Of a stretch of DNA of 64,000 nucleotides, positions 15,380-63,957 are shown piece after piece; within the stretch, counting starts at the first letter, position 1; every line of letters starts with the position of its first letter. Source of the DNA: Sternotherus odoratus (lineage: Eukaryota > Chordata > Testudines > Kinosternidae); NCBI GenBank assembly GCA_032164245.1, contig JAVMKO010000006.1:104983310-105047309 (forward strand). The letters are read 5' to 3'. A program made the translations under genes and the position numbers. The notes beneath the pieces were generated by a model, which saw nothing but the letters and a program-made list of their open reading frames with translations, did not search any database and had not been told where the DNA came from.

Positions 15380-15527
15380 CTATGTCACAGGAGAGGTAAC
15401 AAAGTCCTGTGGCACCTTAAAGACTAACTATAAAGTTAGTCTTTAAGGTGCCACAGGACTTTGTTACCTCTGCTATTCCAGACTAACACGGCTAGCTCCC
15501 TGATTCTTGACATCTATGTCACAGGAG
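15380..15527. mobile_element. PLE tail pair (inverted) with 14-bp target duplication
   Basis: A 120-bp insertion (15394-15513) consists of aggtaacaaagtcctgtggc...aaagactaact joined to its inverted copy, then the PLE terminal text (ttccagactaacacggct). It is flanked by ctatgtcacaggag at 15380-15393 and again at 15514-15527, an exact 14-bp direct repeat. No protein sequence is included. Confidence 0.85.
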
Positions 15528-18107: not shown

Positions 18108-19126
18108 CAGGGCCGGCGACAGGGGGGTACAACGGTTACAGCTGTACCGGGCCCCGGACTTCAGGGGGGGCCCCCTGAAGTCCGGGGCCCGGTACAGCTG
18201 TAACCGTTGTCGCTGGGGCTGTGAGCGAGGCGCGGCTCGGGCAGCCGCTGCCGTGCTCACCAGCCCTCCTCCCCCGGCACCCAGCAGCCGCAGCACATGC
18301 GGGGGTTGGGGCCCGCAGGAGGTAGGAGACAGGCCGCGGGAGTTCGCCGGGGGAGGGCCGCGGGAGATCGCCGGGGGAGGGCCGCGGGAGATCGCCGGGG
18401 GGGGGAGGGCCGCGGGAGATCGCCGGGGGGGGGGCGCGGGAGATCGCGGGGAGGGGAGGGGCGCGGGAGATCGCCGGGGGGGGAGGGCCGCGGGAGATCG
18501 CGGGGGGGGGGAGGGCCGCGGGAGATCGCGGGGGGGGCCGCGGGAGATCGCCAGGGGGAGGGCCGCGGGAGATCGCCGGGGGGGGCCGCGGGAGATCGCC
18601 GGGGAGGGGAGGGCCGCGGGAGATTGCCGGGGGGGGGGGCGCCGCGGGAGATCGCGGGGGGGAGGCAGGAGATCGGCGGGGGGGGGCGCGGGAGGTAGGA
18701 GACCGGCCGGGGGGGGGCGCGGGAGGTAGGAGACCGGCGGGGGGGGCACTCGGGCCGCGGGAGATCGGCCGGGGGGGGCCGCGGGAGATCGGCAGGGGGG
18801 GGCGCGGGAGGTAGGAGACTGGCAGAGGGGGGGCCCTCGGGCGGCGGGAGATCGGCGGGGGGGCCGCGGGAGGCAGGAGACCGGCCGGGGGGGGCCGCGG
18901 GAGGTAGGAGACCGGCGGAGGGGGGGCCCTCGGGCGGCGGGAGATCGGCGGGGGGGGGGCGCGGGAGGCAGGAGACGGGGGGGAGCGCAGGCGGTGGGAG
19001 ACTGGCAGGGGGGGCCCCTCGGGCAGCGGGAGACTGGTGGGGGGGGGGCCCGCGGGCGGCGGGACACTGGCGGGGGGGGCGTACGGTCTGCCGAATGGGG
19101 CCCCAAAATTCCTGTCGCCGGCCCTG
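18108..19126. mobile_element. G-rich hAT-type non-autonomous element, copy 1
   Basis: A 1019-bp unit starts cagggccggcgacagg and ends cctgtcgccggccctg, perfect 16-bp terminal inverted repeats with the CAGGG start usual for hAT elements. Next to the left end is a palindrome with 40-bp arms (18129-18168 and 18171-18210) and a 2-bp loop. From about 18340 to 19080 it is a degenerate G-rich minisatellite built on gggagatcgccgggggg-like units of about 24-34 bp. Unlike copies 2-4 it lacks matching 8-bp flanks (gatctctg left, attgcaat right). Confidence 0.8.
18129..18210. repeat. Perfect palindrome, 40-bp arms
   Basis: The left arm acaacggttacagctg... continues to tcaggggg and is the exact reverse complement of 18171-18210. 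It could extrude as a cruciform or form an RNA hairpin. Confidence 0.95.
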
Positions 19127-34330: not shown

Positions 34331-36208
34331 ATTGTTTATGCTGATACAGACCACACAGCTCCCACTCTGAAAAACATTGAGAGGTTTCCAGCAGAACACC
34401 TTTATTCAGCTGGGAAATGCTGATTCCTTGAAATTGACCCCTTGGGAACACGTCCATCTCAATGACAATCTGTTTGGTGAGGGTCCCGATCAACATGGGA
34501 GAGTGGGGAAGTTCAGAGGTTGTTCGGGTTGGGGTGGGGTGGGGTGGGTGACAGCACTGCCGCCCTCACATCTGTGCTGCCTTCAGACCTGGGCTCTGAG
34601 ACTAGCAGCCAGCAACCTTTCTGAAGCTAGAGGAGGTTCCCAGATGTGGAGGTGGGTCCCTGCTGCTGGGAGCACCTCAGCTGGGGGCTCCGACCTACCC
34701 GTCCCCATGCAGATTAGCACAACGGCCTTGGCCAATTTGGGGGCATCCAGAAAAATGAGCCCCAGAAGGAACTGCAAGGGAAGCCCCGAGCCCCAGCTGC
34801 AGATGCCGGGTAGAAGCCCCGAACCCAGGCACCCAGAGCACGAGCAGGAGTGGGGAGGGGCATGAAAGTCCTGAGTTCGGTGCCACAGCCCTGCCTGCAG
34901 CCGTGGGGGTCAGAAGCCCTGAATCCAGGCACCCAGAGATGAGGCTGGAGGAGAAGCTGCCAAAACCAAAGCCCTGAGCCCAATACTAGGCTGCTGCAGT
35001 GCACTCGCTTCTGCCCTGCCTCTGGAGTTGCATCTGATATCCCCACGGAGAGCCCTGTCCCCAGCCCAGCGGACTAACAGCTAGGACGTCCCTACTGGGT
35101 ACTCCTGGCTCGGGGGATCCCAGCAGGGTGGGGAGATCGGATATCACGGGGCCAGGGCTATTTCAATCTCGCCAAGAAAGGCACAAGAACCAACGTCTGC
35201 CAGCTGAAGCCAGAGTGATTCCAATGAAAAGGAAGAGACCCATTTTTGACAGTGAGGGAGACTAGGCACGGACACCAATTACCCAGGGGTGAGGTGGAAT
35301 CTGTTTCCTTGTGTCCTCACATCACAACTGGCTGTCATTCTGGAAAGTGCCTTTTAGTGAATTACAAGCAACGGGGCTTAATATGGTGCAAAGGGAGTGA
35401 AATTTCATAACCCATGAAATAGAGGCCAGTTTAGGAGATCGAATTATTTAACACTCTATGAAAAACTCAGTGTGGGGTGAGGAACAGTCTTTGCTGTTTT
35501 ACTGGGGGGCCTGCTTGCTCCCCAGAATCAATAATGAGCAAGTGGGGAGATCCGGGGTGCAGCCCAAACATCCCACCGGGCTGGCCAAGGGCAGACATCA
35601 GGCCTGCAAGGGAAAACATGGGGGTGGCAGTGACTTCACCAAGGCCTTGGGCAGGAACTCTGCCTATTGGCCAAAGGTGGTGAGGTGGCTGTGACCTCAC
35701 AGCGCTCCCTTGACAACACCGGGCAGGACAGGGATGCGGGGTAGCGGGTACCCCAGAGACCCCTGTAGCCTGGCTGTAGGAGGTCTCCAGCTCATGAGCT
35801 CTCGATGGATTGGTGTGGAGGAGATTCAGTGAGCTATCTGATCACCAGTGTGAGGATTTTTTAAAAAGAAATTGTCATCTGTGTAGAAGTTAAGAAAAAT
35901 CTCGGCTTTATGTACAGGATGGGGGACTCTATCCAAGCAGATCCTCAGGGAGGAGTGGAGAGGTTTGATAACTCTGTACTGGGCATTGGTGCAAACACGC
36001 CTGGAATATTGTGTCCTAAATGAGGCCTAAGACTCAATTCAACGGCATTTCTTTCTCTGTCTGCAAGGCGATAATTTTTGAAGGCTACATCCAATTGATT
36101 CCAAAATGTCAGGGAATTTCTAGGGATCCGTGGGAAGAACCTTGTTGATTTTGGTGACAATTGGAAAGTTACACCCCCCAGAAAAGCCTCGTTTCCACAC
36201 TGGGCCCC
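34331..36208. other. Unassigned; GC-rich stretch at 34480-35130
   Basis: 34785-34985 repeats loosely the phrase gaagcccygarcccaggc, suggesting a degenerate tandem sequence. The 162-codon frame at 34377-34865 has no family likeness and no splice support. Confidence 0.4.
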
Positions 36209-36338
36209 TTACATTGGTGTTGTTACCTCTGCTAGTTCAGACTAACACGGCTACCTCTCTGATTCTTTACATTGGTGTTGTTACCTCTGCTGTTTCAGAC
36301 TAACACGGCTACCTCTCTGATTCTTTACATTGGTGTTG
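36209..36338 (+). mobile_element. Two 44-bp PLE tail tips between three copies of a 14-bp repeat
   Basis: ttacattggtgttg occurs at 36209-36222, 36267-36280 and 36325-36338. Each gap holds 44 bp of PLE terminus (ttacctctgct, then ttcagactaacacggctacc and tctctgattct). The two 44-mers differ at two neighbouring positions (gctagtt and gctgttt). Confidence 0.9.
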
Positions 36339-36439
36339 TGAGCTGAAGGGCATTGTGACCCTAGTGTGAATTCAGCCAGTCAGGGCTGACTCTCCACCAA
36401 TGATTTGCATAAATAAGGGTTGGTGGAGTCAGTGGGTAA

Positions 36440-37930: not shown

Positions 37931-38765
37931 TTGGGGCGGTCTACCCCGGGGGAGGGTTTGTTTCGGCAGGGTGGCCCACCCGGGCGGGGGTGTTGTTTCA
38001 GTGGGGCGGCCCACCCGGGGGCTGGGTTGCAGTTGTGTCGGTGGGATTGCCCAACCAGGGAAGGGGGGTGTTTTAGTGGGGCGGCCCACCCGGGGGCTGG
38101 GTTGTAGTTGTGTCGGCGGGATTGCCCAACCAGGTAAGGGGGGGTGTTTTAGTGGGGCGGCCCACCCGGGGTGGGGGGGTGTTGTTTCGGTGGGCATCCC
38201 AACCGGGTTGGAGGGGTGTTGTTTCGGTGGGCAGCCCACCCGGGGGGGGGGGTGTTGTTTCGGTGGGGCGGCCCACCCGGGGTGGGGGGGTGTTGTTTCG
38301 GTGGGGCGGCCCACCCGGGGTGGGGGGGTGTTGTTTCGGTGGGGCGGCCCACCCGGGGTGGGGGGGTGTTGTTTCGGCGGGCAGCCCACCTGGGGTGGGG
38401 GGGTGTTGTTTCGGTGGGCAGCCCACCCGGGGGGGGGTGTTGTTTCGGTGGGGTGGCCCACCCGGGAGTGGGGGGGTGTTGTTTCGGCGGGCAGCCCACC
38501 CGGGGTGGGGGGGTGTTGTTTCGGTGGGGCGGCCCACCCGGGGTGGGGGGGTGTTGTTTCGGTGGGCATCCCACCCGGGGTGGGGGGGTGTTGTTTCGGC
38601 GGGCAGCCCACCTGGGGTGGGGGGGTGTTGTTTCGGTGGGCAGCCCACCCGGGGGGGGGGTGTTGTTTCGGTGGGGTGGCCCACCCGGGAGTGGGGGGGG
38701 GTGTTGTTTCGGCGGGCAGCCCACCCGGGGTGGGGGTGTGTTGTTTCGGTGGGGCGGAGTTCAAT
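37931..38765. repeat. G-rich VNTR, about 39-bp unit, roughly 22 copies
   Basis: Unit approximately tgttgtttcggtggggcggc then ccacccggggtgggggg, 36-40 bp with two main variants (ggggcggccc and gggcagccc). The left part (about 37970-38160) uses a longer, 78-bp composite unit containing gtgtcggygggattgccc. The repeat leaves open frames of up to 436 codons on both strands. A CR1 3' end follows at once. Confidence 0.95.
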
Positions 38766-47025: not shown

Positions 47026-48091
47026 CTAGAGCTGACAGCAGTCATGAGGGAAAGAAGAAAATTCCTTTTCTGGGGCAGCATTCAGAAAAAGAGAAAAGCT
47101 TCATTTGCTTTTCTTTATCTAAGCAGGAAGAAGCTCTCCTGAGAGACATAGACACAAATGTTCACGGTGAGCCTTTTGGCCCCAGTGAGGATGTGAGTGG
47201 TGAGGAGATGCCTGATCTTCCAGTTGGTTCAAGTGCAGGTGACCTGGAAGTTACTACAGCATCCATGTCTCCATCTCAAATGGATGTAACCAGGCACATT
47301 CCTGAAGAAAAGTGTAGATCAGAGAAGGGTGTAGTGGAGGCGCAAGAAACAGTTGCTGCTGAGTTTAGTTGCTTGAGTCTACGTGATCCAAGACTGCGGA
47401 CCCACTTGAAGAGTAACCTGAGAGGCTAAGTGTAAAACGTCATGTTCCCCAAAGACAATGAAACTACACGTTTCCATCCAACACATTACTGGCGTGAAAT
47501 CCACAATGGTGACAAAGTGGAGAGGCCATGGCTTATGTACTCAAAAACCTAGAATACTGCATACTGTTTTTGTTGCAAACTCTTCCATTTTAATGTTCCA
47601 GGCACATTGGGTTCTACAGACACAAAGGACTGGAAAACTCTGGCTAGAAATGTGGCATGCCATGAAAAAGCAGCAAATCACCAGACCAGAGAGCATTCCA
47701 TAAGTGGAAAGAGCTTGAGATGAGACTAAGGTTAAAGGCCACCACCGATGATCAGCATCAAGGGAAGATTTCATCAGAGTCTCTTTACTGGCAAAATGTT
47801 CTGGAAAGGCTCATTGGCATTGTGAGAACGCTTGCTACCCAAAACCTAGCACTTCTGATCAGCTGTATGTGCCAAACAAGGGAAACTTCCTTAAAATTGT
47901 GGAGCTGATGGCTAAGTTGATGCTGTACCCCAGGAGCATCTAAGAGTCACCCCCCAAGAAATGTGCACACACTACTACCTTGGAAAACAATTCCAAATGA
48001 GATCACACCGTTACTGGCAACAAAAGTCAAATGGAAGATTGTGGCAGATCTTAAGTCAGCAAGATATTACAATGTTAGTCTGGACTGCACA
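47026..48091 (+). pseudogene. hAT transposase with TTF zinc finger (ZMYM1-like), N-terminal part
   Basis: The transposase gene of a hAT-superfamily DNA transposon of the TTF-finger type. Order: an acidic head (EALLRDIDTNVHGEPFGPSE, open to 47429), the TTF finger block (RFHPTHYWREI, VERPWLMYSK), then AFHKWKELEMRLRLKATT, LYWQNVLERLIGIVRTLATQ and VADLKSARYYNVSLDCT. Several stops and frame changes disable it (for example TAG after SKT near 47550 and TGA after LKLWS near 47908). The frame is cut at 48084-48091 by a G-rich element and resumes at 49435. Intact relatives would cut and paste the element in the nucleus. Confidence 0.85.
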
Positions 48092-49434
48092 CAGGGCCGG
48101 CGACAGGGGGGTACAACGGGTACAGCTGTACCGGGCCCCGGACTTCAGGGGGGGCCCCTGAAGTCCGGGGCCCGGTACAGCTGTACCCGTTGTCGCCAGG
48201 GGCTGTGAGCGAGGCGCGGCTCGGGCAGCCGCTGCCGTGCTCACCAGCCCCCTACCCCGGCACCCAGCAGCCTCCCCCGCCACTCTTTGCTTCTCCCGAA
48301 CACGCGGCCGCAGCACATGCGGGGGTTGGGGCCCGCGGGAGGTAGGAGACCGGCCCGGGGGGAGGCGGGGACGATAGATCGGCGGGGGTGGTGGGGGCGG
48401 GTGATCGGCCGGGGGGGCGTCGGGAGATTGGCCGGGGGGGGCGTCGGGAGATCGGCCGGGGGGGGGGCGTCGGGAGATCGGCCGGGGGGGCGGTGTCGGG
48501 AGATCGGCCGGGGGGGGGGACGTCGGGAGATCGGCCGGGGGGGGGGACGTCGGGAGATCGGCCGGGGGGGGCGTCGGGAGATCGGCCGGGGGGGGGCGTC
48601 GGGAGATCGGCCGGGGGGGGGCGTCGGGAGATCGGCCGGGGGGGGCGTCGGGAGATCGGCCGGGGGGGGAGTCGGTGGGAGATCGGCCGGGGGGGGCGTC
48701 GGTGGGAGATCGGCCGGGGGGGGGGCGTCGGCGGGAGATCGGCGGGGGGGGCGTGGGAGACTGGCGGGGGGGCCTCGCGGGTGGCGAGAGACTGGCGGGG
48801 GCCCCGCGGGTGGCGAGAGACTGGCGGGAGGAGACTGGCAGGGGGGGGCCTCGGGCGGCGGGAGACTGGCGGGGGGGCCCACGGGCAGCGGGAGACTGGC
48901 GGGGGGGCCCCATGGGCGGCGGGAGACGGGGGGGGGCCGCAGGTGGCGGGAGATGGGGGGGGCCCCGCGGGTGGCGGGAGATGGGGGGGGGCCCGCGGGT
49001 GGCGGGAGACTGGCGGGGCCCCATGGGCGGCGGGAGACTGGCGGGGCCCCGCGGGTGGCGGGAGACGGGGGGGGCCCCGCGGGTGGCGGGAGATGGGCGG
49101 GGCCCCGCGGGTGGCGGGAGACGGGCGGGGCCCCGCGGGTGGCGGGAGACGGGCGGGGCCCCGCGGGTGGCGGGAGACGGGCGGGGCCCCGCGGGTGGCG
49201 GGAGACGGGCGGGGCCCCGCGGGTGGCGGGAGACGGGCGGGGCCCCGCGGGTGGCGGGAGACTGGCGGGGCCCCGCGGGTGGCGGGAGACTGGCGGGGCC
49301 CCGCGGGTGGCGGGAGACTGGCAGGGGGGCCCCCCGCAGGCGGCAGGAGACTGGCAGGGGGGTGGGGCGCAGGCTGCGGGAGACCGGGAGGGGGGCCCGT
49401 ACGATCTGCCCCAAAATTCCTGTCGCCGGCCCTG
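48092..49434. mobile_element. G-rich hAT-type non-autonomous element, copy 2
   Basis: 1343 bp, ends cagggccggcgacagg and cctgtcgccggccctg, flanked by actgcaca at 48084-48091 and 49435-49442, an exact 8-bp target duplication. Inside: a palindrome (48113-48193); about 150 bp of single-copy GC-rich DNA; a block of about 23-bp units (gtcgggagatcggccggggg) at about 48410-48740; then 28-bp units (gcgggagacgggcggggccc plus cgcgggtg) at about 48840-49330. It encodes no transposase. Long open frames over it are repeat by-products. Confidence 0.93.
48113..48193. repeat. Perfect palindrome, 39-bp arms
   Basis: 48113-48151 and 48155-48193 are exact reverse complements with a 3-bp loop. The core gtacagctgtac is itself palindromic in each arm. 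Confidence 0.95.
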
Positions 49435-49973
49435 ACTGCACACCTGACATATAAATGACTTTAATGGTGCGTGTTGTAACAACAACAGAACCTAGTGAAA
49501 ATGTCCCTGCAATGGTGACTGTCTAGAGCATTTTCTAGAATTTATTGCCAATGATGATACTACAGGAGCCAGTATGACAAATGTGCTTCCTAAAAAGCTG
49601 GAAGATACGGGAATTGAGAGAGCTGACATGAGAGGTCAGGGCTACAATAATGGTGCCAACATGAGAGGAAAGAACAGAGGAGCGCAGACTCGGATCTGAG
49701 AGTTAAACCCTCGAGTTTGTTTTGTCCCATGCAGTTTTCATTCATTGAACTTGGTGGTTAGTGATGCAGCATCAGCCGCTAGTGAGGCTGCTGAATCTTT
49801 TAATGTACTTCAAAGCATCTGTGTCTTTTTCTCTGCATCAACTCATCGATGGCAACTTTTGAAGCAACATCTGGAAACATCCTCTCTGACACCGAAACCC
49901 CTGAGTGCCACACGATGGGAAGTCGAGTGGGGGTGATAAAGCCTATCAAACACCAAATTGGGAAGTCCTGGCA
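49435..49973 (+). pseudogene. hAT transposase, middle part (duplication unit 1)
   Basis: Resumes after the target duplication with CTPDI and reads, across frames, to NLVVSDAASAASEAAESFN and VFFSASTHRWQLLKQHL, then LSATRW. These are the conserved blocks of the hAT catalytic core. Ends where PLE sequence begins. Confidence 0.8.
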
Positions 49974-50018
49974 CACAGACAACCCGCCAACCTTAAGCAG
50001 ATTCTCACCAACAACAGC
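49974..50018 (+). mobile_element. First 45 bp of the PLE, carried in the duplication
   Basis: tggcacacagacaacccgcc, then aaccttaagcagattctcac equals the start of the PLE at 51974. It is cut off at the duplication joint. Confidence 0.85.
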
Positions 50019-50204
50019 TGATGGCTAAGTTGATGCTGTACCCCAGGAGCATCTAAGAGTCACCCCCCAAGAAATGTGCACACACTACTACCTTGGAAAA
50101 CAATTCCAAATGAGATCACACCGTTACTGGCAACAAAAGTCAAATGGAAGATTGTGGCAGATCTTAAGTCAGCAAGATATTACCCTGTTAGTCTGGACTG
50201 CACA

Positions 50205-51434
50205 CAGGGCCGGCAACAGGGGGGTACAACGGGTACAGCTGTACCGGGCCCCGGACTTCAGGGGGGGGCCCCTGAAGTCCGGGGCCCGGTACAGCTGTAC
50301 CCGTTGTCGCCAGGGGCTGTGAGCGAGGCGCGGCTCGGGCAGCCGCTGCCGTGCTCACCAGCCCCCTACCCCGGCACCCAGCAGCCTCCCCCGCCACTCT
50401 TTGCTTCTCCCGAACACGCGGCCGCAGCACATGCGGGGGTTGGGGCCCGCGGGAGGTAGGAGACCGGCCCGGGGGGAGGCGGGGACGGGAGATCGGCGGG
50501 GGGGCGGGGGCGGGTGATCGGCCGGGGGGGCGTCGGGAGATTGGCCGGGGGGGGGCGTCGGGAGATCGGCCGGGGGGGTGTCGGGAGATCGGCCGGGGGG
50601 GGGGCATCGGGAGATCAGCCGGGGGGGCGGCGTCGGGAGATCAGCCGGGGGGGCGGCGTCGGGAGATCGGCCGGGGGGGCGTCGGGAGATCGGCCGGGGG
50701 GGCGGCGTCGGGAAATCGGCCGGGGGGGCGGCGTCGGGAGATCGGCCGGGGGGGGCGTCGGCGGGAGATCGGCCGATGGGGGCGTCGGCGGGAGATCGGC
50801 CGGGGGGGGGCGTCGGCGGGAGATCGGCAGGGGGGGCGTGGGAGACTGGCGGGGGGGCCACACAGGTGGCGAGAGACTGGCGGGGGCCCCGCGGGTGGCG
50901 AGAGACTGGCGGGGGACCCGCGGGTGGCAGGAGACTGGCGGGAGGAGACTGGCAGGGGGGGCCTCGGGCGGCGGGAGACTGGCGGGGGGGCCCACGGGCA
51001 GCGGGAGACTGGCGGGGGGCCCCATGGGCGGCGGGAGACGGGGGGGGCCCCGCAGGCGGCGGGAGATGGGGGGGGCCCCGCGGGTGGCGGGAGATGGGGG
51101 GGGGCCCCGCGGGTGGCGGGAGATGGGGGGGGCCCCGCGGGTGGCGGGAGACGGGGGGGGCCCGCGGGTGGCGGGAGACGGGGGGGGCCCGCGGGTGGCG
51201 GGAGACGGGGGGGGCCCGCGGGTGGCGGGAGACGGGCGGGGCCCCGCGGGTGGCGGGAGACGGGCGGGGCCCCGCGGGTGGCGGGAGACTGGCGGGGGGG
51301 GCGCGGGCGGCGGGAGACTGGCAGGGGGGCCCCCCGCAGGCGGCAGGAGACTGGCAGGGGGGTGGGGCGCAGGCTGCGGGAGACCGGGAGGGGGGCCCGT
51401 ACGATCTGCCCCAAAATTCCTGTCGCCGGCCCTG
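50205..51434. mobile_element. G-rich hAT-type element, copy 3 (duplicate of copy 2)
   Basis: 1230 bp with actgcaca at 50197-50204 and 51435-51442. One TIR base is changed (cagggccggcaacagg). Palindrome at 50226-50307. The minisatellite is shorter and ordered differently from copy 2, for example fewer 28-bp units at about 51190-51290. Confidence 0.93.
50226..50307. repeat. Perfect palindrome, 39-bp arms
   Basis: 50226-50264 and 50269-50307 are exact reverse complements, loop of 4 bp, same arms as copy 2. Confidence 0.95.
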
Positions 51435-51973
51435 ACTGCACACCTGACATATAAATGACTTTAATGGTGCGTGTTGTAACAACAACAGAACCTAGTGAAA
51501 ATGTCCCTGCAATGGTGACTGTCTAGAGCATTTTCTAGAATTTATTGCCAATGATGATACTACAGGAGCCGGTATGACAAATGTGCTTCCTAAAAAGCTG
51601 GAAGATATGGGGAATTGCGAGAGCTGACATGAGAGGTCAGGGCTACAATAATGGTGCCAACATGAGAGGAAAGAACAGAAGAGCGCAGACTCAGATCTGA
51701 GAGTTAAACCCTCGAGTTTGTTTTGTCCCATGCAGTTTTCATTCATTGAACTTGGTGGTTAGTGATGCAGCATCAGCCGCTAGTGAGGCTGCTGAATCTT
51801 TTAATGTACTTCAAAGCATCTGTGTCTTTTTCTCTGCATCAACTCATCGATGGCAACTTTTGAAGCAACATCTGGAAACATCCTCTCTGACACCGAAACC
51901 CCTGAGTGCCACACGATGGGAAGTCGAGTGGGGGTGATAAAGCCTATCAAACACCAAATTGGGAAGTCCTGGC
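51435..51973 (+). pseudogene. hAT transposase, middle part (duplication unit 2)
   Basis: Same text as 49435-49973 with a few changes, including one extra G near 51610. After it the true PLE continues, so this unit keeps the original hAT/PLE junction. Confidence 0.8.
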
Positions 51974-52556
51974 ACACAGACAACCCGCCAACCTTAAGCA
52001 GATTCTCACCAGCAACAGCACACCGTGCCATAACAACTCCAACTCAGGAACCAATCCATGCAACAAACCTCGATGCCAACTCTGCCCAAATATCTACACC
52101 AGCAACATCATCACAGGACCTAACCAGATCAGGCACACCATCGCTGGTTCATTCACCTGCACATCTACCAATGTCATATATGCCATTATATGTCACCAAT
52201 GTCCCTCTGCTATGTACATCCGCCAAACTGGACAGTCCCTACGAAAAAGGATAAATGGACACAAATCAGATATCAGGAATGGCAATATACAAAAACCTGT
52301 AGGAGAACACTTCAACCTGCCTGGACACACAATTACAGATTTAAAAGTCACCATATTGCAGCAAAAAATCTTCAAGACCAGACTGCAAAGAGAAACAGGA
52401 GAGCTGCAATTCATTTGCAAATTTGACACAATCAATCTGGGATTGAACAAAGATCTTGAATGGCTTGCTAATTACAAAACAGCTTGTCCTCTCTCTGAGT
52501 TCACACCTCCAATTCAGCTGCTAGAGGAATACCTCACCCTTCCTGATTTGAGATAA
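51974..52556 (+). pseudogene. PLE C-terminal region with GIY-YIG endonuclease
   Basis: About 190 open codons: a cysteine cluster (NPCNKPRCQLCPNIY), then the nuclease (FTCTSTNVIYAIICHQCPSA, MYIRQTGQSLRKRINGHKSD, PVGEHFNLPGHTITDLKVTI), ending in LEEYLTLPDLR and TGA. The domain nicks target DNA in PLE retrotransposition. The glycine of the YIG motif is arginine here (MYIRQTG), while the copy at 1.2 kb keeps it, so this nuclease was probably inactive. The reverse transcriptase is absent because of 5' truncation. The open frame reaches back into hAT sequence only by chance. Confidence 0.88.
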
Positions 52557-52781
52557 CAAGCAGGTTCAGGCTCATTGGACTAACCTTGTTACCTCCTACC
52601 TGGTTCTTGCCTACTTATCTATACCTGCCCCTGGACACTTCCACTGCTTGCATCTGACGAAGTGGGTATTAGCCCACGAAAGCTTATGCTTCAATACTTT
52701 AGTTAGTCTTTAAAGTGCCACAGGACTCTTTGTTACCTCTGCTATTCCAGACTAACACGGCTACCTCTCTGATTCTGTTCA
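51974..52781 (+). mobile_element. Penelope-like element, 5'-truncated, inserted in the hAT gene
   Basis: Coding end (to 52556), about 90 bp of spacer, then the full 3' tail: tgcatctgacgaagtgggta, ttagcccacgaaagcttatg, tctttaaagtgccacaggac and ttccagactaacacggctac, ending tctctgattct. It ties the dispersed tail repeat seen elsewhere in this window to a GIY-YIG-bearing PLE. hAT transposase text resumes at about 52785. Confidence 0.92.
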
Positions 52782-52784
52782 TGG

Positions 52785-52975
52785 GAGAAGAGTGGCAGAG
52801 GGAAATGGAATCACCAGAAACATACATAACATCAAATTCCTGGGTGGCTTAGTGTTGTGGTATGACATACTGTTTGGAGTCTCTTGCTTACAACATTTAT
52901 TTCAAGGTTTTGACCTTAATATATACCTGGAGCAATGGAAGAACTGGACAAAGCGAAGTCGTACTTCATAGACTC
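52785..52975 (+). pseudogene. hAT transposase, fragment after the PLE
   Basis: Frame reads EGNGITRNIHNIKFLGGLVL then WYDILFGVSCLQHLFQGFDL and EQWKNW, the part of the TTF-type hAT transposase following LSATRW...HQIGK. Ends at cttcatag where a reversed CR1 starts. Confidence 0.75.
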
Positions 52976-53300
52976 ATGGACTTTAAGGTCAGAAGGGACC
53001 ATTATAATAATCTAGTCTGACCTCCTGCACAACGCAGGCCACAGAATCTAACCCACCCACTCCTGTAATAAACCTCTCACCTATGTCTGAGCTATTGAAG
53101 TCCTCAGATCACAGTTTAAAGACTTCAAGGTGCAGAGAATCCTCCAACAAGTGACCCGTGCCCTACGCTGCAGAGGAAGGCAAAAAACTCCCAGGGCCTC
53201 CGCCAATCTGCCCTTGGGGAAAATTCCTTCCCGACCCCAAATATGGTGATCAGCTGAACCCTGAGCTTGTGGGCAAGACACCAGCCATTCTAAGAAAACA
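52976..53300 (-). mobile_element. CR1 LINE 3' end in the hAT gene
   Basis: Reversed CR1: catggactttaaggtcagaa, then ctagtctgacctcctgcaca, cctatgtctgagctattgaa and ttccttcccgaccccaaata. Confidence 0.88.
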
Positions 53301-53544
53301 AAACAACAAAAACAAAAATGGCCATTTTCCAAAAAAAGACTTGTAAATAAATCCAGGCCAAAAACTATTTAAAATGTTTATGGTAAAATGATTTTAATTA
53401 GTCAAATTAGCTAAAAACATAAGGGGTTTTATTAATACCTAACCCCCCAAAAAAGGGATATTTGTTATTTGAAAGCTAATTAGGGAGGGCAATACATGCT
53501 GAAGGTGCTTATTTAAAAACACGGGCACAGCCTGTGGAATAAGA
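53301..53544. other. AT-rich insert of unknown class
   Basis: Separates the CR1 from the next hAT fragment. No motif recognised. Confidence 0.4.
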
Positions 53545-54270
53545 CACCACTCAGATGAGAGATTTCAAAATGTTCAGAAAAGTGCACAGAAGTTGGTAGA
53601 GGAACTTCACACTGAAGCTATTTCCCCACCCATTCAAGAATAAGAGAGTCACCAAAGAAGACATTTTGATTATGAGGCAGGGGATTAGAGACCCCAAACA
53701 ACAATTCAAAGTTGAATTCTTTAATCAGCTGCTAGATTGTGCAATACGGTCAGTTGGAGAACATTTCACGCAGCTCAAGGATCACAGCAGTATATTTGGG
53801 ATGTTGTAGGATATTCCAAATCTCCTCACTATACACCAGGAATGCAGGGCACTAGAGACAGTGTTGACACATGATGGCATGTGTGATAATGATGTGAGTG
53901 ATTTAGGTGATGAACTGAAAGCACTTTCAAGATAAATTTCATCAGGAACAACTCCAAAGGCTGTTCTGGAATATATGTGCACAAATAAGATGACCATCCT
54001 CTTTCCAAATGCTTTTGTTGCTCTGCACATACATCTAGCACTTCCTATCAGAGTTGCCAGTGGAGAACGCAGCTTATCCAAGCTGAAGTTAATAAAAAAC
54101 CATCTACACTTCATAATGACTCGGGAGAGGCTGGTCGGCTTTGCAACCATCTCAGCAGAGCATGAGCTGGGCCCAGACTTGTGGACCTTCAGGAAGCAGA
54201 AGCAGTTCAAATTTCTGCAACCAAGAAGGCCCGGAAAGCACCACTTTGATTATTCAAACAAATAACTATG
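53545..54270 (+). pseudogene. hAT transposase, C-terminal part with hATC dimerisation domain
   Basis: Reads QNVQKSAQKLVEELHTEAIS, then across frames ISPPIQE...HFDYEA. An open stretch from 53975 follows: MCTNKMTILFPNAFVALHIH, ASGERSLSKLKLIKNHL and MTRERLVGFATISAEHELG. The SGERSFSKLKLIK block is the signature of the hAT C-terminal dimerisation domain. Premature stops lie near 53656 and 53930. Confidence 0.88.
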
Positions 54271-55326
54271 CCAGTGTTTACTATGCAGACAAGAAAAGTT
54301 ACATTTGCTCTTCAGTCGGTGCCAGCTTTAGATGAGGAGAAATATCGTTCTACAGATGAGTAGAAACACAATCCATGACAAAACAGCAAAAGCAAATGTA
54401 GTGGCTGTCTCAGCCAACGCAAGACACATCTGGACACAAGCGTCCCCTCACCTGACCTCCTGCAAAAGATTCACATCTCTTGTAATCAGAACTGGTGGAA
54501 CTAGATCCGGAGATGGTATAGACTGGAATAGCCTGAGGATCAGTAAATCAAGACCTTTAATATTCTGAGTGTCTATTGTGTTTTAAGTCTTTGATAAATA
54601 AAAAAAAATACTTGATGAACAATCTATGTGCATGAATATTCTCTCATGTCTCTTGGATTATGTGTCTTTTGATCAAACTACCTCTCCTGGGCAACTTCTT
54701 GTTACTTTCTGACTCAGGCTATATTTGCTCACCAATGGCTGTTCATGTTGGCTGTCCCTTTGCGGAGCTGTCTCTGAAACCCAGGACTCCACACAGGCAC
54801 AAACTCCAGCTCCTTTTGGGGGTTGTTCTCCCTCCCAGCACTGATTCCTCCCCTGCCCCCTTTTCCTCAAGGGCTGTGGTCTGTGGTCTCTGGGCTAAGA
54901 GTGTCTACTCTCTCATCAGCGGCTCCTTTTCCCAGCAGTTTTCCCTCCCCTATAAACATAATAAATAGAGTGTTACTATAGGTGTTAGCATCTCACCAGA
55001 GATCACTGTTCATAGAGTGAAATATGGAAACCTAGTTCATGTCTGTGTAGAAGGAAAGTTTGGGAAGGGGGCATTCCCAGAACATTCCCAGAATGTTAAC
55101 ACAGTCAAAGAACTGTGGACCAAAACAGAAGCAAGTTGCAAAGCTGGTGACTCGCTCTCCCCAAAAGATCCCTAGCCCCAACTTTGAATCAAAATATTTC
55201 CAGAGTAAATGTTCTTCAGAAGATACCAAGAGGACCTGACCTCTTTCAAAACAGCTTCTATCTTCTATTGTTCTTGAGGACGACAGGGTGCAAATGCCCT
55301 TTGAAAGGAAATGACTCTCTGTGCTG
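54271..55326. other. Probable 3' flank of the hAT element, unassigned
   Basis: No terminal inverted repeat of the TTF-type hAT could be fixed. An A-run (aataaaaaaaaatac) lies at about 54597-54612. Confidence 0.4.
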
Positions 55327-55334
55327 GGGACATG

Positions 55335-55507
55335 CAGGGCCGGCGACAGGGGGGTACAATGGGTACAGCTGTACCGGGCCCCGGACTTAAGGGGGGGACT
55401 TAAGGGCGGGAGACCGGCCGGGGGGGGGGGCGCGGGCGGCGGGAGACCGGGAGGGGGGGCCCGCACGATCTGCGTACGGGGCCCCAAAATTCCTGTCGCC
55501 GGCCCTG
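55335..55507. mobile_element. G-rich hAT-type element, copy 4, short form
   Basis: 173 bp with the same ends (cagggccggcgacagg and cctgtcgccggccctg) and exact 8-bp flanks gggacatg at 55327-55334 and 55508-55515. It has the left palindrome arm (acaatgggtacagctg...) but no right arm and only two degenerate ggcgggagaccggccggggg-type units. Confidence 0.93.
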
Positions 55508-55515
55508 GGGACATG

Positions 55516-63832: not shown

Positions 63833-63957
63833 TAGGGTGACCAGACAGCAACTGTGAAAAGATGGGACAGAGGGTCAGGGAAAATAGGTGTCTATATAAG
63901 AAAAAGTCCTCCCAAATAGGGACTGTCCCTTTAAAAATGGGACATCTGGTCACCCTA
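63833..63957. mobile_element. Mariner-like MITE, 121 bp
   Basis: gggtgaccagac at 63835 and tctggtcaccc ending at 63955 form terminal inverted repeats, with TA on each side (63833-63834, 63956-63957). Inside is the known phrase aaatagggactgtccct. Confidence 0.75.

Follow-up and report, generated by a model that had tools for sequence, protein, structure and literature searches.

Probable non-autonomous hAT-type element carrying a G-rich minisatellite of variable length in turtle DNA

Four related sequences in a 64,000-nt stretch of turtle DNA (the window) are very probably copies of a non-autonomous hAT-type element that is moved in trans and carries a fast-mutating minisatellite as its passenger. 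The first-pass annotation had proposed an element of this type, non-autonomous and with a G-rich minisatellite that varies, and this proposal is supported by the terminal repeats, by 8-bp target duplications and by one comparison with an empty site. The additional proposal that the element spreads VNTRs stands in a narrower form, namely that of an array travelling with the element and differing in length between copies within the window.

Copies, terminal repeats and target duplications

The copies lie on the plus strand at 18108–19126 (copy 1, 1019 bp), 48092–49434 (copy 2, 1343 bp), 50205–51434 (copy 3, 1230 bp) and 55335–55507 (copy 4, 173 bp), and the lengths initially assigned to them were reproduced. 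As annotated, all four carry the 16-bp inverted repeat CAGGGCCGGCGACAGG at both ends, which in copy 2 occupies 48092–48107 (plus strand) and 49419–49434 (minus strand). The repeat is matched at all eight ends and exactly at seven of them, the left end of copy 3 having one mismatch. With up to three mismatches allowed, CAGGGCCGGCGACAGG has nine matches in the window compared to a mean of 0.23 in 100 shuffles; the ninth, with three mismatches, is located at 35054.

Exact 8-bp flanks are formed by ACTGCACA around copy 2 (48084–48091 and 49435–49442) and copy 3 (50197–50204 and 51435–51442), and by GGGACATG around copy 4 (55327–55334 and 55508–55515). Copy 1 has no target duplication, with GATCTCTG as its left and ATTGCAAT as its right flank, and a comparison of 30 bp on either side yielded no common word of at least five bases. 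Furthermore, an unguided scan of the window, in which inverted ends of 12 bp and flanks of 8 bp both had to be exact and to lie within 3 kb, returned eight pairs, compared to none in 20 Markov-chain controls. Two of these pairs are copies 2 and 4, one is another element at 63833, and five are internal artefacts arising from palindrome symmetry. The same scan with 9-bp ends, for which no control was run, gave ten pairs and now included copy 3, which is found only at this setting because of its end mismatch; copy 1 appears in neither scan. Outside the ends, the sequence differs among copies 1, 2 and 4 within the window. With such differing flanks, the ends are not merely part of a longer repeat, which the first-pass annotation had named as grounds for rejecting a transposon, and a satellite with chance ends of this kind is not what is found in this window.

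A tandem duplication joining copies 2 and 3

Copies 2 and 3 go back to one insertion, which a head-to-tail tandem duplication of approximately 2 kb doubled. The first unit of this duplication (47903–50015, plus strand) holds copy 2 and the second (50016–52016, plus strand) holds copy 3; their flanks agree in 761 of 769 aligned positions (99%) with two gaps, and the trinucleotide AGC at 47903, 50016 and 52017 constitutes a 3-bp microhomology at the junctions. The ACTGCACA flanks are common to both copies because they were inherited via the duplication. Two insertions into a preferred target are ruled out by the approximately 770 bp of flank that the copies have in common at 99% identity. Since copies 2 and 3 are one insertion, the four copies originally listed represent three independent insertions, two of which have a target duplication; the reported 8-bp duplications are exact at copies 2, 3 and 4, with those of copies 2 and 3 not being independent of each other. 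The duplication thus lowers the initial count, yet it supplies two initially identical copies with their flanks as a clock.

The interrupted host gene and its empty site

The insertion represented by copies 2 and 3 sits within a decayed ZMYM1-like hAT transposase gene. When the flanks of copy 2 are joined with a single ACTGCACA, one frame reads across the insertion point (YYNVSLDC/TPDI, with the slash marking this point); the joined frame reads YYNVSLDCTPDI over the join and is directly followed by a stop. A protein search with the pieced-together fragment identified 27 proteins, the four best of which are turtle proteins, with a ZMYM1-like protein of Macrochelys suwanniensis at the top (79% identity). 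The insertion point is uninterrupted in all seven aligned homologues among these 27, including three from turtles, and likewise in the turtle proteins P0013 and P0023 that were read besides the aligned seven. Altogether, six turtle sequences were read, of which five cover the site and are all uninterrupted, and P0004 starts after the site. Empty sites in related species, which the first-pass annotation had suggested looking for, were found in this way for one of the three insertions, at the protein level and in related genes rather than at the orthologous locus, so that the comparison illustrates the appearance of an empty target and does not date an absence of the element. The turtle relatives are also what marks the window as turtle-like, for which a transposon gene is imperfect evidence.

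The host gene extends over approximately 47400–54300 and is broken by the element, by the tandem duplication and by other sequence. Six short pieces of it gave no Pfam match at 0.001. At a lax setting, DUF4371, Dimer_Tnp_hAT and GIY-YIG were obtained for three of four pieces, each below the curated cut-off, and the ZMYM1-like family name therefore rests on the 27-protein search. Between parts of the host gene, at 52011–52553, lies an open frame of 181 residues that matches GIY-YIG below threshold and is possibly a Penelope-like remnant. The host transposase was also considered as the autonomous partner of the element and was rejected, as scans for inverted ends with near-exact 8-bp flanks found none around the host gene; in one of these end scans, 20 control placements gave two matches, both in a single placement.

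Palindrome, GC-rich block and the structure of copy 4

The body had been annotated as a palindrome followed by a GC-rich block and G-rich repeats, a description that applies to copies 1–3 and has to be amended for copy 4, in which the second palindrome arm and the GC-rich block are absent. The palindrome is perfect in copy 2 (48113–48193, 39-bp arms, 3-nt loop), copy 3 (50226–50307, 39-bp arms, 4-nt loop) and copy 1 (18129–18210, 40-bp arms, 2-nt loop), and its folding z-scores range from −13.1 to −13.8. In the folds of copies 1 and 2, ten unpaired bases, which in copy 2 lie on the left, are followed by pairing that extends outward into the element's own left end. The palindrome looks like an inverted copy of this left end, from which it may have originated. 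The short, non-repeated GC-rich block spans approximately 150 bp in copy 2 (48194–48344) and is 37 bp shorter in copy 1; its folding is no better than chance (z −1.58, with 12 of 200 shuffles equally good).

Between the palindromes of copies 1 and 2 (18129–18210 and 48113–48193), one paired change is seen in which both arms are altered together; copying between the arms would explain this single case. Elsewhere in the window, a perfect palindrome with 38-bp arms and a 4-nt loop (15392–15471) is followed by the word agactaacacggct, which is also present within a 58-bp tandem repeat at 36209–36339. This palindrome perhaps consists of two inverted repeat tails.

The assignment to a hAT-type element leaves the order of events open. 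Tentatively, copy 4 could be the ancestral short form, with the palindrome and the long arrays acquired later, as it has both ends complete and an exact target duplication with just two units. However, copy 4 could alternatively be the internal deletion product of a long copy, and the word GGACTTAAGGG, which is repeated at the break in copy 4 (55383–55411), looks like filler DNA from the repair of an excision gap. Moreover, three insertions cannot set the order.

Units and turnover of the G-rich array

In copy 2, the G-rich minisatellite array occupies 48345–49400 (plus strand) and comprises 39 unit starts, nearly all of the GGAGA type, compared to 35 in copy 3, 27 in copy 1, where other unit variants prevail, and 2 in copy 4. 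The array thus consists of short head-to-tail units that differ in number between copies, as is characteristic of a minisatellite. An array of variable repeat number had been described correctly, but with units of 23–28 bp; the units, most of which begin with GGAGA, are mostly 22–33 bp long.

The array changes faster than its carrier, in both unit number and unit content. Between copies 1 and 2, the body shows 6 substitutions in 252 positions, besides gaps, and the arrays, with G runs shortened, show 59 in 635 together with 65 gap events. Comparisons of the body with copy 4 gave 2/63 and 1/42 (copy 2), and 4/46 for copies 1 and 4 at their right ends, which is above the other body comparisons. 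Between copies 2 and 3, substitutions amount to 1/287 in the body, 8/769 in the flanks and 24/907 in the arrays, the latter with 20 gap events (22/811 with G runs shortened). The contrast between array and flanks in this pair has a Fisher p of 0.019, a value that depends on the alignment; aligning such G-rich DNA involves uncertainty, and errors of sequencing and assembly arise easily in G runs.

At the level of whole units, the alignment of copies 2 and 3 has 40 columns, 34 of which are paired (9 identical), and the remaining 6 are unpaired and fall into four blocks. Units follow each other in the same order in both copies and end with three that are identical, and a difference of one or two bases, often in the length of a G run, is seen in many of the pairs. 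The nearest unit is found in the same copy for 22 of 27 units in copy 1, 11 of 39 in copy 2, 8 of 35 in copy 3 and neither of the two in copy 4, with copies 2 and 3, as duplicates, being each other's neighbours. The mean unit distance is 0.311 between copies 1 and 2 and 0.274 and 0.279 within copies, a small difference.

Slippage or repair would be the cause of these changes. Copies 2 and 3 offer a natural comparison, that is, an insertion doubled in place with a flank clock of 1% change and an array altered both in the number of its units and in their content. Should the family prove common in turtles, minisatellite turnover could be measured from dated copies at a large number of sites, and these copies would demonstrate that GC-rich VNTRs can be seeded by way of a DNA transposon.

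Base composition, quadruplex potential and coding potential

Copy 2 has a GC content of 81% and a G content of 55%. Of the 931 plus-strand 25-nt windows in the whole stretch that reach a G4Hunter score of at least 1.75, 756 fall within the four copies, which account for 5.9% of its length; quadruplex potential is accordingly a prediction of this score. The observed/expected ratio of CpG is 0.81–0.89 in the copies compared to 0.32 in the window. A separate minisatellite with a 37-bp G-rich unit in approximately 22 units is present at 37950–38757 without the inverted ends, and G-rich arrays in this DNA thus do not depend on this element.

When placed in yeast, CEB1, a human minisatellite, increases the rearrangement of chromosomes, an effect dependent on its quadruplex-forming motif, according to the available excerpt of the report (PMC3486850). 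By analogy, this case makes a link between quadruplexes and rearrangement plausible here. A more far-reaching proposal is that the element acts as a mobile founder of VNTRs, each insertion placing a hairpin beside a quadruplex-prone seed that expands on its own at the site, with this replication-blocking pair also provoking rearrangement of the target. The duplication of 2 kb that contains copies 2 and 3 would be the example of such a rearrangement, but we consider this proposal unlikely.

Open frames span the array on both strands, because the units have few stops. For one minus-strand frame of copy 2, no protein relative was found at E 0.001, neither with its left part (1730 candidates) nor with the whole frame (the 7982 candidates with the most words in common). 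As both of these searches matched nothing, the idea that the element contains a decayed transposase is rejected, and the earlier statement that the body is not such a remnant is borne out for this frame. The interior is taken as non-coding, and since the element is apparently non-coding, the negative protein searches carry little weight. Rfam and tRNA scans of the window returned nothing, and the left end of the element had no match in a viral-contig collection, where turtle sequence is not expected.

Mode of movement and class assignment

Movement in trans would require a hAT transposase that is made elsewhere in the genome and recognises the 16-bp ends. This enzyme would cut the element out and reinsert it, yielding the 8-bp target duplication. 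Alternatively, a minisatellite of the host could have been flanked or captured once by hAT ends, with later copies arising by segmental duplication instead of transposition. Segmental duplication did produce copies 2 and 3, a G-rich 37-bp minisatellite without these ends does exist in the window (37950–38757), and copy 1 is without a target duplication. However, the flanks of copies 1, 2 and 4 differ, two of these copies have distinct exact 8-bp duplications, and the insertion of copies 2 and 3 breaks a gene that is uninterrupted in relatives. Furthermore, two unit patterns with 45 and 7 matches in the unmasked window have none once the copies are masked, and a BLAST search of the masked window with the element gave nothing better than E 0.02. 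Capture of a host minisatellite followed by segmental duplication is therefore very improbable.

The hAT superfamily is defined by 8-bp target duplications and 15-bp ends in the excerpt available of PMC11008031. In the present element, 8-bp duplications are exact at two of the three independent insertions, and the inverted repeats have 16 bp, close to the approximately 15 bp of short hAT ends. The ends of hAT elements usually begin with CAGGG. The window yielded no transposase with matching ends; the hAT label rests on the ends together with the target length.

Membership in another superfamily with duplications of this length, for example P or Merlin, is in our estimation very improbable. In its favour, no transposase was observed, and hAT elements are not the only ones with 8-bp duplications. 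Merlin elements also make them. In the P superfamily, Galileo has duplications of 7 or 8 bp, as stated in part of its description (PMC4168063). However, short 16-bp ends in combination with 8-bp duplications fit hAT as it is characterised in the excerpt of PMC11008031.

Relation to known elements

The first-pass annotation had called a DNA transposon with such a passenger unusual, which is too strong because elements with terminal inverted repeats (TIR) and tandem repeats have already been published, as far as the accessible parts of the sources go (PMC9659126; PMC12628747; PMC4596501). The turtle element adds to a pattern on record for other animals and for a bacterium, and looks like a real, tidy instance of a type that other organisms are known to have. 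SVA retrotransposons are mobile and contain a GC-rich VNTR of copy-dependent length, and they move by reverse transcription. The turtle element is similar in being mobile with a GC-rich VNTR whose length varies between copies, but has the ends of a DNA transposon.

TIR elements with tandem repeats include Xenopus miDNA4 and MITEs of bivalves and lepidopterans (PMC9659126; PMC12628747, both in excerpt). According to these excerpts, they are likewise short, with terminal inverted repeats that enclose tandem repeats, and the array of miDNA4 is also of variable copy number; miDNA4, however, is assigned to Tc1/mariner, whereas the ends and 8-bp duplications described here point to hAT, and the G-rich unit and the large palindrome at one end set the turtle element apart from those MITEs. 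The MITEs of Donax trunculus are grouped with MITEs carrying tandem repeats on the basis of a title in the reference lists of these sources. A MITE would be short, non-coding and of high copy number; the copies measure 173–1343 bp, no protein relatives were found for the open frame searched, and three copies exceed the approximately 400 bp given in the excerpt of PMC9659126.

In Porphyromonas gingivalis, BrickBuilt is a minisatellite within a MITE (PMC4596501, in part). It has a leader, head-to-tail 23-nt units without spacers, a tail and small inverted-repeat ends, which is similar to the organisation found here, but it is bacterial, and the parts of the report that were available mention no G-rich array or 8-bp duplication. 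Galileo resembles the turtle element in its conserved ends and variable structure, and three of its copies have internal tandem repeats (PMC4168063, excerpt); those of Galileo extend the inverted repeats, whereas here the repeats are internal and the ends have 16 bp. The turtle element hAT-6_XT has the same 8-bp duplications and inverted ends of approximately 15 bp, a likeness by description in the excerpt of PMC11008031, but hAT-6_XT encodes a transposase. The available portions of PMC2871265, PMC3389668 and PMC10294476 added nothing. Among the literature matches listed, no title concerned a hAT element of turtles that contains a G-rich minisatellite; an entry in Dfam or Repbase may exist. 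Another short hAT-like element, unrelated to the four copies, is present in the window at 63833–63957, with TAGGGTGACCAG as its ends and AATATAAA as exact 8-bp flanks.
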